From positions 1 through 42,309 of the forward strand of contig JACRAK010000008.1 in the NCBI GenBank assembly GCA_016234725.1: a DNA stretch of 42,309 bases. Direction: 5' to 3'. The stretch is from Candidatus Azambacteria bacterium. GTDB lineage: Bacteria > Patescibacteriota > Minisyncoccia > GWC2-36-17 > WO2-46-25. The position numbers were made by a program, and so were the translations under genes. Under the pieces are notes generated by a model. That model ran no database searches and was not told the DNA's origin. It saw only the letters and a program-made list of their open reading frames with translations. Shown here one piece after another: positions 314 through 4,484 of the stretch. The stretch's first letter is position 1; each line of letters begins with the position of its first letter.

Positions 314-513
314 ATTATTGGTTAGTTAAAAAATTGGAAAAAATGTGTTTGTTGTGCGCTTCGCGCACCCGAACCGCCTCCTCCTCAACCGGAAAGTCCG
401 AATGGATTTTTCCGAACCGTGGCGATTTGCCGCGTCCCGCCTTGCGGGACGCGGAGATGCCGAGGGGCGAAGCCCCGAGGCAACCTCTTCCGAAAATTTG
501 ACTTGTCTTGAAT

Positions 514-667
514 GGTCGCGTATCCTGAATTTAGCGCGAACCCATTTTGAGCGAAATTGCTGACGCAATTTCGCGGCAATTCCCAAAACCCGCTCGGGTG
601 CGGCGGAAGGAGGGGGTTGGGGGGGAGGAATTCCGCCGCACCCTCGCTTCGGAAAAATTCGCGCCGA
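514..667. repeat. Left copy of ~154-bp inverted repeat flanking the two-gene unit
   Basis: ggtcgcgtatcctgaatttagcgcgaaccc...ttcggaaaaattcgcgccga is the reverse complement of 2518-2670, with one G-run length difference and one substitution seen by eye. Contains nested palindromes (GCGAAATTGC/GCAATTTCGC; GGGTGCGGCGGAA/TTCCGCCGCACCC). Confidence 0.95.
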
Positions 668-754
668 TAATCAAATAGGAAGACCTGAAATTGTCCTTAA
701 AATAAGGGCTTTTTTGTTGGTTTTTGGGTATTGGTTTAATCATAGCGTTTGGAC

Positions 755-783
755 TTGACAGGAACAATGTAATATGCTATACT
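755..783 (+). promoter_or_regulatory. Consensus sigma70-type promoter
   Basis: TTGACA (755-760), 17-nt spacer, TATACT (778-783), upstream of the two-gene unit. Confidence 0.85.
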
Positions 784-875
784 TAACACATAATTTGAGA
801 TGGTAGATTTCCTCTCAAATTAGCGAAAATAGCTCTTTGATAAGCGAGAGAAATACAAGGGAAAAGTCCTCTTTT

Positions 876-976
876 CCTCGGGAGTAGCGAAGTGGGTATC
901 TTAAATTGAGGTATCTAGCTCGCTACTCATGTCGAGGAGCCCTTGGTGCGGGGAACGCATCAATTTCACGCTCACG
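876..976 (+). ncRNA. Structured leader RNA motif, copy 1 (unassigned)
   Basis: P1 CCUCG(876-880)/CGAGG(933-937); P2 GAGUAGCGA(882-890)/UCGCUACUC(920-928); P3 hairpin ~893-917; P4 UUGGUGCG(943-950)/CGCAUCAA(956-963), loop GGGAA. 922-976 is identical (55/55) to 1917-1971. Confidence 0.8.
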
Positions 977-1028
977 AGGTGGCTAACGCCAAATTCAAAC
1001 CTCAAGAGCAAGAAAGTGGAGGAAAGCC

Positions 1029-1715
1029 ATGAAACACATCATGATGTCCAACGCGTGGGAGTTCGGAACGGATCCGTTCGCGGCCTACCGGGCCAACCTG
1101 GTCTACGGCCGAAACAAGCGCGACAGGGAGTTCCTGCCGGTCAAGGACGTGACCCCGATGACGCAGTACACGGTCACCGCCGACTACGGCAAGATCCTGT
1201 ACATCGGTACAGACAAGTCCGCGGCCGAGGCGGCGAAGGCGAAGTACGACGCGGAGCAGAAGGCGAAGGCCGAAAGCTCCTCGTACTGGACGCCGACCGC
1301 CGACCTGAAAGCCGGCCTGCCGACGCTTCCCGAGGGCAAGTTCCGCGTCATCAAGACGAAAGAGAAGGGCACCATCCTCGTGGTGCCCGGGAGCGACGAC
1401 ACGAATCGTTGCTTCCTGTTCGTCGGGTGCGCGGGCGGTTTCCGTGGCGGTGTCGGTGTCATCAGCGACGGCACCACCGGCACGATCCTCAAGGAGTGCT
1501 CCGCAGGCAACAACTGCGAGTCCTCCACCGAGGTCGTCGTGCTCCTCGAGCAGGGCCAGTCGGTCGCGTTCCACACGTCGGGCCGCCGCACCAACGAGGT
1601 GTACCAGTACACCTGGAACGGTGCGGAGGTGGAGAAGAAGCACTTCTCCAAGTCCGAGTGGGACAACCGGAACGCGGTTGCCGCACCGCCCATCGAGGAC
1701 GCCGAAGTCCTGTAG
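1029..1715 (+). CDS. Hypothetical protein (228 aa), GC-rich codon usage unlike neighbours
   Basis: Intact ORF with GGAGG-like SD (gtggaggaaagccATG), directly downstream of structured leader copy 1. Confidence 0.85.
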   Translation: MKHIMMSNAWEFGTDPFAAYRANLVYGRNKRDREFLPVKDVTPMTQYTVTADYGKILYIGTDKSAAEAAKAKYDAEQKAKAESSSYWTPTADLKAGLPTLPEGKFRVIKTKEKGTILVVPGSDDTNRCFLFVGCAGGFRGGVGVISDGTTGTILKECSAGNNCESSTEVVVLLEQGQSVAFHTSGRRTNEVYQYTWNGAEVEKKHFSKSEWDNRNAVAAPPIEDAEVL

Positions 1716-1743
1716 AGTTCTCTCGCAAGCACAACAGAGTTTC

Positions 1744-1768
1744 GGGAAGTTCTCTATAAAAACTTCCC
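1744..1768 (+). other. Stem-loop just upstream of the hammerhead
   Basis: GGGAAGTT(1744-1751)/AACTTCCC(1761-1768). Confidence 0.8.
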
Positions 1769-1769
1769 A

Positions 1770-1820
1770 CTGTTCCTCGGATGTGTATCCGAGCTGATGA
1801 GTCCGAAAGGACGAAAACAG
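1770..1820 (+). ncRNA. Hammerhead ribozyme (type III topology)
   Basis: CUGUU-C|CUCGGAU-GUGU-AUCCGAG-CUGAUGA-GUCC-GAAA-GGAC-GAAAACAG. Stem I 1776-1782/1787-1793; CUGAUGA 1794-1800; stem II 1801-1804/1809-1812; GAAA 1813-1816; stem III 1770-1774/1816-1820; predicted cleavage after C1775 (UUC triplet). Confidence 0.93.
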
Positions 1821-1862
1821 ATAGCACTTTGAGAAAACATAAACGAGAATATCTTCCTATCA

Positions 1863-1971
1863 CTTCGTGGGTAGCATAGTGGATGTCTTTGGAAAAATAA
1901 AAAAGATTTTCAGTATGCTACTCATGTCGAGGAGCCCTTGGTGCGGGGAACGCATCAATTTCACGCTCACG
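1863..1971 (+). ncRNA. Structured leader RNA motif, copy 2 (unassigned)
   Basis: P1 CUUCG(1863-1867)/CGAGG(1928-1932); P2 GGGUAGCAUA(1869-1878)/UAUGCUACUC(1914-1923); conserved block 1917-1971 identical to copy 1, including the P4 hairpin. Confidence 0.8.
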
Positions 1972-2006
1972 GCCACAGGCCACGAGCACGAAAACAGGAG
2001 GATGAC

Positions 2007-2375
2007 ATGAAAGTTTTCTGGACGTCTCGGCACGACCTCTCTCCGGCGCAGGTGTCGGCAATCCGCGCGCTTCACGGCGAGGACGCGGAAGTGGTAAAGG
2101 ACCCCGTGGTGTTCTCAAACACCGACGGGCTCGCGGATTACATCCGCAGCCACTCCGACAGTTTCGTCTACGCAGTCGCCGGTGCGCCGCACTACATCAC
2201 GGCGGCACTCGCGGGTCTCCGCTTCGGTGTGTTCGAGAACCACCCGCAGAAGCGACAGGACGGATCGTTCGGTCTCGCCGCTGTCTACCACGTGGACGGC
2301 TCGCTCAAGAAGGTTTGGGTCAATCCCGACCCGACGAGCGACAAAGGCGAGGCGCTGATCCCCGTCGCTCGCTAG
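2007..2375 (+). CDS. Hypothetical protein (122 aa)
   Basis: ATG at 2007 with AGGAGG SD at 1996-2001; MKVFWTSRHDLSPAQVSAIRALHGEDAEVV... Confidence 0.85.
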   Translation: MKVFWTSRHDLSPAQVSAIRALHGEDAEVVKDPVVFSNTDGLADYIRSHSDSFVYAVAGAPHYITAALAGLRFGVFENHPQKRQDGSFGLAAVYHVDGSLKKVWVNPDPTSDKGEALIPVAR

Positions 2376-2396
2376 TTCTCGTTCGTTCGCAACATC

Positions 2397-2440
2397 GAGC
2401 CCCTTATGACAAAACATCGTCATTCGGGGCTCTTCTTTTT
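2397..2440 (+). terminator. Rho-independent terminator
   Basis: GAGCCCC...GGGGCTC followed by TTCTTTTT. Confidence 0.85.
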
Positions 2441-2463
2441 ACATAATTTCAAAGAACAAATGA

Positions 2464-2514
2464 TTGCGAAAACAAATTTTTTCAGCTATCCTTTAATTGT
2501 ATTTGTTTTCGCAA
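2464..2514. repeat. 14-bp perfect inverted repeat
   Basis: TTGCGAAAACAAAT (2464-2477) / ATTTGTTTTCGCAA (2501-2514). Confidence 0.85.
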
Positions 2515-2517
2515 CCG

Positions 2518-2670
2518 TCGGCGCGAATTTTTCCGAAGTGAGGGTGCGGCGGAATTCCTCCCCCCAACCCCCTCCTTCCGCCGCACCCGAGCGGGTTTTG
2601 GGAATTGCCGCGAAATTGCGTCAGCAATTTCGCTCAAAATGGGTTCGCGCTAAATTCAGGATACGCGACC
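2518..2670. repeat. Right copy of ~154-bp inverted repeat
   Basis: Reverse complement of 514-667. Confidence 0.95.
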
Positions 2671-2734
2671 AAAAGATTGAAAAAGATGTGACCCGGGTTT
2701 TCCGCCAGCTGGCGGATCCCAGTGGCCCGACCAT

Positions 2735-3232: not shown

Positions 3233-3750
3233 GAAATAAGGCAAAAGACACAAACAACATGCTCGTATCTGCAGATGGCCGCCTATTATGGAAAGATAGA
3301 GAGTATCGATGCGCTCTCGGTAAAAACGGAGTTACCGCTCATAAAAAAGAAGGCGACGGCGCCACTCCTGTCGGCTGTTTTCCTGTCCGCAAGATCCTTT
3401 ATCGCTCGGATCGCATGGAAAAACCAACTACTGATATTCTTCTTGAACCGATTGCTCCGACCGACGGCTGGTGCGATGATTCAAATGATGATAATTACAA
3501 CCGCTTAGTCATGCTCCCCTATCACGCAAGCCACGAACGCTTGTGGCGGGAAGACAATCTCTACGACCTCATAGTGGTATTAGGATACAACGATGAGCCG
3601 CCCATCCCAGGCAAAGGAAGCGCCATTTTTATGCATGTGGCGCGCCCAAACTATACGCCGACCGCGGGATGCATCGCTCTTGCTCTTTCTGATCTCCTGG
3701 AAATCATTAAAACAATTAATCAGAGCACACGCGTTTGCATGTATGAATAA
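3229..3750 (+). CDS. L,D-transpeptidase catalytic domain (YkuD-like) protein
   Basis: HVARPNYTPTAGCIAL (H...GC) active-site pattern. Confidence 0.85.
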   Translation: MRNKAKDTNNMLVSADGRLLWKDREYRCALGKNGVTAHKKEGDGATPVGCFPVRKILYRSDRMEKPTTDILLEPIAPTDGWCDDSNDDNYNRLVMLPYHASHERLWREDNLYDLIVVLGYNDEPPIPGKGSAIFMHVARPNYTPTAGCIALALSDLLEIIKTINQSTRVCMYE

Positions 3751-3794: not shown

Positions 3795-3931
3795 TGGGCG
3801 GCTCGGACTTAAGCTAGTGTCCACGTGGGTGCCCGCAGGTGTGCATTCCGGACGAACCAGCAATGCATACCAATGTAAGGCTCCCGAGAACAATTATTTG
3901 ACCTTAAGTCGTTGCCTGCCCCTGTAGAGCT
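3795..3931 (-). ncRNA. ssrS: Probable 6S RNA
   Basis: Minus-strand promoter TTGCAT-17-TATAAT (TATAAT at 3943-3938) precedes a long imperfect hairpin: GGGGCAGGC..GACUUAAG / CUUAAGUC..GCCGCCC closing stem, large central bubble, GGG-GCC-GGU/ACC-GGC-CCC distal stem, apical UUCG-type hairpin. No ORF. Confidence 0.65.
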
Positions 3932-3977
3932 ATTATCATTATACTCCCTTCACAGGCGGAATGCAACCCGGCAAGCC

Positions 3978-4484
3978 CTATTCATGAAGGGTCAATTTCG
4001 TATAGCTAGGCGTGTGTTTTACGAGTTCTTCGGGCTTGAACCAGATACCCACCTCTACAACCGCTTCTTCCGGTGTCGCGGACGCATGAATGAGATTGAA
4101 CACACCCATCTTTCTTTCATCGGCGAAACGATATGAGATATGCGCATAGTCGCCGCGGATCGTTCCCGGGGCCGCTGACTTCGGCTCGGTCGCGCCGATC
4201 ATCTTGCGCACCACTTCAACCACATCGATGCCCTCAAGCACCATTGCCACGATCGGGCCTGACGTAAGCATCTCGATCATCATCGTGCGCACATGTTCCC
4301 CTCGGCGCTTTGCGAGATCCTCAGTATAGTGCAATGCGGCCGTGTCTTTTTCAGACACAAGCAATTTCATCCCAACCATTTTCATACCCACCCGTTCAAA
4401 TCGCGTGATGATCTCGCCAACGATACCGCGATCAAGCGCATCGGGTTTTAAAATGACGAGTGTCCGTTCGTTTATTTTTGACAT
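3978..4484 (-). CDS. ndk: Nucleoside-diphosphate kinase
   Basis: ERTLVILKPDALDRG ... NLIHASATPEEA active-site His motif. Confidence 0.96.
   Translation of the reverse strand: MSKINERTLVILKPDALDRGIVGEIITRFERVGMKMVGMKLLVSEKDTAALHYTEDLAKRRGEHVRTMMIEMLTSGPIVAMVLEGIDVVEVVRKMIGATEPKSAAPGTIRGDYAHISYRFADERKMGVFNLIHASATPEEAVVEVGIWFKPEELVKHTPSYTKLTLHE

Follow-up and report, generated by a model that had tools for sequence, protein, structure and literature searches.

The window is one entire contig of 42,309 bases from a 923-kb genome (G000). At its left end, on the minus strand, lies the N-terminal part of a serine recombinase (positions 2-313; open frame; Pfam PF00239 Resolvase, E 2e-16), truncated by the end of the contig. 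Beyond it two genes are enclosed by near-identical inverted repeats, the left arm at 513-667 (plus strand) and the right arm at 2518-2671 (minus strand), whose outer 112 nt are identical and whose inner 55 nt are 95% complementary. The genes and their RNA elements lie on the plus strand. A TTGACA-17-TATACT promoter at 755-783, matching the consensus at 11 of 12 positions, is the sole plus-strand promoter-like site returned by a promoter scan within 600-2760. Downstream are placed a folded hairpin where the transcript is predicted to begin (791-821), a boxA-like site GCTCTTTGATA (copy 1, 832-842), a structured leader (884-1015) and gene 1 (1029-1715, 228 aa). Gene 1 is separated from gene 2 (2007-2375, 122 aa) by a hairpin with the arms GGGAAGTT and AACTTCCC (1744-1768), a predicted type III hammerhead ribozyme immediately 3' of it (1770-1820), a second boxA-like site GCACTTTGAGA (copy 2, 1824-1834) and a second structured leader (1871-1993). 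An intrinsic terminator, read by eye, follows gene 2 at 2397-2440; it escapes the computed scan, whose loop limit was too tight. A boundary element (2440-2517), which contains a 14-bp inverted repeat, fills the space up to the right arm. The feature list of an earlier, sequence-only reading is thereby recovered in full: the inverted repeats, the single promoter, the duplicated leader, the stem-loop ahead of the hammerhead, the hammerhead between the genes, the terminator and the recombinase outside the left repeat.

The GC-richer codons claimed for both genes were also borne out, with a GC3 of 0.91 for gene 1 and 0.80 for gene 2 vs a mean of 0.59 and a maximum of 0.70 among the 34 other ORFs of the window, a set that includes an off-frame ORF overlapping gene 1 (929-1759). 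Both genes are orphans. Neither has a Pfam, NCBIfam or PADLOC family above the cut-off, and thus no transposase was identified inside the inverted repeats and no known anti-phage defence protein by PADLOC. Both are absent from the eight other genomes of the order. The relatives of gene 1 are found in G326 (identity figure of 73%), where a second, longer copy adjoins the first, and in G209 (61%). The relatives of gene 2 stand at 65-77%, and the three close ones are at L014, L015 and L016 (the last in G156); L015 belongs to Candidatus Wildermuthbacteria, a name classed under Patescibacteria, and is of the same class as the window. The structure model of gene 2 is an alpha/beta protein (pLDDT 76.8) for which no Foldseek match below 0.001 and no PDB sequence match were obtained; the best VIA match (Z 4.9) shares only the common alpha/beta layout and is not convincing. 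The model of gene 1 (pLDDT 49) is unusable. A hammerhead is present at only one of the three close gene 2 relatives (L016) and at neither of the two gene 1 relatives. Since most close relatives of the genes are without a hammerhead, the ribozyme and the genes travel separately.

The sequence-only reading took the repeats as the borders of a discrete transferable unit, possibly linked to the recombinase. The repeats are, by their distribution, dispersed intergenic hairpins. Five of the order's eight other genomes have matches to the inner half of the repeat, mostly singly; wherever these were read they are intergenic hairpins in which the stem varies and the G-rich loop is conserved. REP/BIME palindromes are likewise dispersed intergenic hairpins that occur in part as inverted pairs. 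The repeats of the window differ from them in the conserved loop and in the variable stem. The repeat is also missing from all 12 Y1-transposase loci that were read, and neither of the two Y1 genes of G000 has a copy nearby; in these loci no link was seen to a Y1 transposase as mover of the repeats. No target-site duplication abuts the repeats, and a discrete transferable unit with these borders is not supported.

Mobility itself is supported in part. The sequence to the left of about 3800 is missing from the matching site in G008, a sister species of the same genus, and in G006. Right of 3800 the stretches read in these two genomes contain other genes and no recombinase, cassette or neighbours of it. 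Because G008 and G006 show other genes at the matching site, the region is, by this comparison, an island relative to both. In G008 a different gene pair with a GC3 of 0.83 and 0.73 (neighbours 0.42-0.44) directly precedes the same boundary element and repeat, and two inverted copies of the repeat in G005 flank other genes at a spacing of about 2.3 kb. A cassette that its 154-bp inverted repeats and the neighbouring serine recombinase move in one piece would account for the insertion at the nucleoside-diphosphate-kinase-like site, for the outlying GC3 of both genes, for the G008 gene pair of high GC3 that abuts this boundary and for the inverted pair in G005. The dispersal of the repeat, mostly as single copies, the lack of a target-site duplication, the 0 of 12 Y1-transposase loci and the position of the truncated recombinase outside the repeats speak against it, and such a mobile cassette is considered rather doubtful.

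An element at 3805-3950 of the window, just 3' of the nucleoside-diphosphate-kinase-like gene, is conserved at the DNA level in G008 and G006 and has no convincing Rfam family (best E 0.16). The inverted G-rich repeat pair of G005 (L113, 1380-3810) contains an HTH-like gene, as judged by eye. The boundary element at 2440-2517 carries a boxA-like GTTCTTTGAAATT on the minus strand, with a similar one in G008 (L114, near 1400).

The two leaders are folded more stably than expected (z -3.6 for leader 1 and -5.3 for leader 2) and consist of three paired regions each: P1 884-926, P2 943-963 and P3 964-1015 in leader 1, and P1 1871-1921, P2 1938-1958 and P3 1959-1993 in leader 2. The 55-nt block is an exact repeat (922-976 and 1917-1971), and outside it the leaders differ by compensatory pairs, two in P1 and three in the tip of P3. 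The gene 1 leader of G326 keeps the ladder of P3 (rungs of 4 bp, loops of 2x2); its P2 differs in sequence and has lost one end pair, and the z of this leader is only -1.45. At the leader position G156, G209 and G312 carry a hairpin about 20 bp long, its z between -5.3 and -6.1; in G156 and G312 it is repeated ahead of neighbouring genes. The idea that RNA elements are repeated gene by gene is correct and a general one: relatives of both genes lie in loci whose consecutive genes have repeated structured leaders, with different sequences. The 55-nt block itself, sought elsewhere as DNA, gave no second occurrence among 383 genomes of the class and is confined to the window. No Rfam family matches the leaders. 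The leader patterns are absent from viral contigs; three stretches there matched the P3 pattern, and the two that were read lie inside phage genes and were discarded as chance.

A leader kept in two identical 55-nt blocks, with its fold retained in both copies and in the gene 1 leader of G326, could be the target of a ligand or of an encoded protein that binds both copies and sets the two genes jointly. However, the predicted folds leave the Shine-Dalgarno sequence fully or almost fully open, the long hairpins that the relatives have in this position are of quite another kind and the leaders are without an Rfam match. Regulation of this kind is thus regarded as unlikely, and a leader that acts as a stabiliser or a translation element is preferred.

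The hammerhead provides the stronger story of the locus. The match to Rfam RF00008 (type III) at 1770-1820 has an E of 0.0029 and 28.6 bits, below the Rfam gathering score of 48.5 bits, and in only one of 379 genomes of the phylum does a score exceed that value. The assignment is made by anatomy. Under a hand-coded description of the ribozyme, stems I, II and III have 7, 4 and 4 bp, the CUGAUGA and GAAA core is complete and a UC cleavage site places the predicted cut between 1775 and 1776. The element has the CUGANGA and GAAA core of type III, with stems I and II closed, stem III open and UH at the cut, and self-cleavage is predicted.

Hammerheads are recurrent in the phylum. RF00008 gives 44 matches in 31 of the 379 genomes and none in 14 control genomes, and our own finder recovered 41 distinct hammerheads in 152 loci vs none in the same loci reversed without complementing. 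Seven of the 44 RF00008 rows failed the stem filter or were not found again and are excluded from the anatomy counts, which cover 43 hammerheads: 42 found and that of G156, whose stem II holds an extra hairpin. In folds, 36 of the 43 have a hairpin ending at most 6 nt from stem III; others have no upstream hairpin. Flush upstream, 18 of the 43 have a perfect stem of 7 bp or more, compared with 5.3% of shuffles and, for six shifted positions, 0-6 of the 43. Within 300 nt upstream, 41 have the end of an ORF of 40 aa or more; ORFs of 100 aa or more occur within 200 nt upstream of 30 (opposite-strand control, 16 of 43), and a terminator-like hairpin with a T run follows 11. The order ORF, hairpin, hammerhead and then either boxA and the next gene or a terminator recurs across the phylum, and the window would therefore be one case of a wider way to divide operons and form 3' ends. 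Among the chromosomal genes next to some of the loci are those for HSP70/DnaJ and adenylosuccinate synthetase. In G547 and G505 (L096, L101) several hammerheads lie on one strand within a few kb, and the stretch of G505 also contains HSP70 and DnaJ genes. Two distant genomes have VWA/MoxR-type genes ahead of a hammerhead, recognised by eye at L035 and, for VWA, by Pfam at L065. A search of one library returned no literature on hammerheads or ribozymes in the candidate phyla radiation or Patescibacteria, which does not prove that there is none.

BoxA is an antitermination site for NusB/S10. Compared with the gamma-proteobacterial consensus GYTCTTTAANA, as given in PMC5725501, copy 1 of the window has one mismatch and copy 2 has two. 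A scan of the 383 class genomes for a hammerhead core followed by CTTTGA gave nine matches and the reversed pattern gave six, so the raw count means little and it is the hammerhead anatomy that carries the argument. A complementary stem II, a closed stem I and a stem III mark seven of the nine as true type III hammerheads, that of G156 with the extra hairpin in its stem II; they come from seven genomes of seven families and an ORF is next in each. The matches in G005 and G180 have no hammerhead and were dropped. When hammerheads were located regardless of boxA, and one in G093 was added to the tally by hand, C[TC]TT[GA]A followed four of five within the class, one of them weak, and two of 32 outside it, near the shuffle rate of 3.75%. 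The hammerhead of G339 is without a boxA. Five viral, phage-type contigs also combine a hammerhead with CTTTGA; these hammerheads are of type I, their UUUGA is stem I and they are not boxA cases.

The 16S leader of G000 has a boxA-like CCCTTTGACAA 55 nt before the start of the 16S model, and with G312 and G339 this makes three of the eight scanned 16S leaders that hold such a motif (shuffles, 1-8% for each). Within 40 kb of G312, one strand has GTTCTTTGA five times and the other never (shuffle mean 0.28); two of the boxA-like places listed there fall within ORFs of at least 100 aa. The gene 2 relative of G156 has a hairpin, a hammerhead, GTTCTTTGA and a leader, and the leader is repeated ahead of the next gene. 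The CTTTGA after class hammerheads looks like a boxA, a putative NusB/S10 site. Elements of other kinds also precede such sites. At L016, a hairpin and CTGACGAG..GAAG, hammerhead-like with a non-canonical core, are repeated at 97% (2094-2185 and 4210-4300), with a boxA-like site next in both copies. In G209 (L022, about 545-610, 1265-1340 and 3450-3515) another AT-rich structured element is repeated before boxA-like sites of successive genes and might be a processing element.

The lambda nut site consists of boxA and the boxB hairpin. The window resembles it in having boxA and then a hairpin, and differs in that its hairpin is much longer and lies tens of nucleotides from boxA. The likeness to the rRNA and suhB boxA (PMC5725501) is in a GYTCTTTAANA-like motif after a promoter or a processed 5' end; the candidate sites here differ by having mostly G at position 8 and by standing before small accessory genes and after a ribozyme. 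That paper also relates that a boxA in the 5' UTR can repress, as at suhB in E. coli, and the sites of the window could repress rather than antiterminate. The long leaders and the GC-rich codons suggest strong expression instead and, while they are not decisive, repression is held to be very unlikely; antitermination is the favoured role.

Hammerheads beside prophage genes were proposed to cut phage polycistronic RNA (Perreault et al. 2011, PMC3088659), and a phage or prophage remnant of such transcript processing would show the same logic of ribozymes between genes, in a mobile setting. The window hammerhead is similar to type III hammerheads and to the clustered ones of prophages in core, stems, cleavage site and placement between genes. 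It differs by its chromosomal accessory genes of Patescibacteria, by the flush upstream hairpin and by the boxA and leader downstream; the main text of that paper uses none of the terms boxA, stem-loop and antitermin. Moreover, neither gene belongs to a convincing phage family or has relatives in viral contigs, gene 2 has none in phage and plasmid records, and the chromosomal neighbours of some hammerhead loci also argue against a phage origin. The cassette DNA gives only short matches to phages and plasmids, mostly on an alanine/lysine-rich stretch of gene 1. A phage remnant is consequently quite unlikely.

The reading preferred here, judged probable if only by a little, is that of an accessory two-gene operon split by a ribozyme, in which the hammerhead would divide one dicistronic RNA and each of the two resulting mRNAs would have a boxA and a leader. 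A single RNA would start from the promoter at 755-783 and the hammerhead would cut it at 1775/1776, just 3' of the hairpin. The gene 1 mRNA would then carry seven nucleotides past the hairpin and end in a 2',3'-cyclic phosphate, whereas the gene 2 mRNA would begin with a 5'-OH and the stem I hairpin of the ribozyme. Given these hairpin-capped ends and the cyclic phosphate and 5'-OH of hammerhead chemistry, both mRNA ends should resist exonucleases. The boxA-like site of each cistron may load or reload NusB/S10 antitermination factors ahead of the folded leader and its open Shine-Dalgarno sequence. The inverted repeats would take no part in this RNA mechanism.

Extended to the phylum, the proposal is more tentative, being possible at somewhat less than even chance: in Patescibacteria hammerheads may serve generally to form the 3' ends of mRNAs and to divide operons, with a gene and a protective hairpin ahead of the ribozyme and, behind it, either a terminator or a fresh boxA and leader that would restart the transcript of the next gene, now antiterminated and with a hairpin shielding its 5' end. 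What is new is the hairpin-ribozyme order across the phylum and its coupling to boxA in one class. To our knowledge, bacterial hammerheads outside phages have long been without a clear job. The order of ORF, hairpin, ribozyme and boxA or terminator points to a concrete one, that of RNA-made mRNA ends in a large uncultured phylum of cells with very small genomes, and the boxA coupling, if true, would extend antitermination of the rRNA type to accessory genes.
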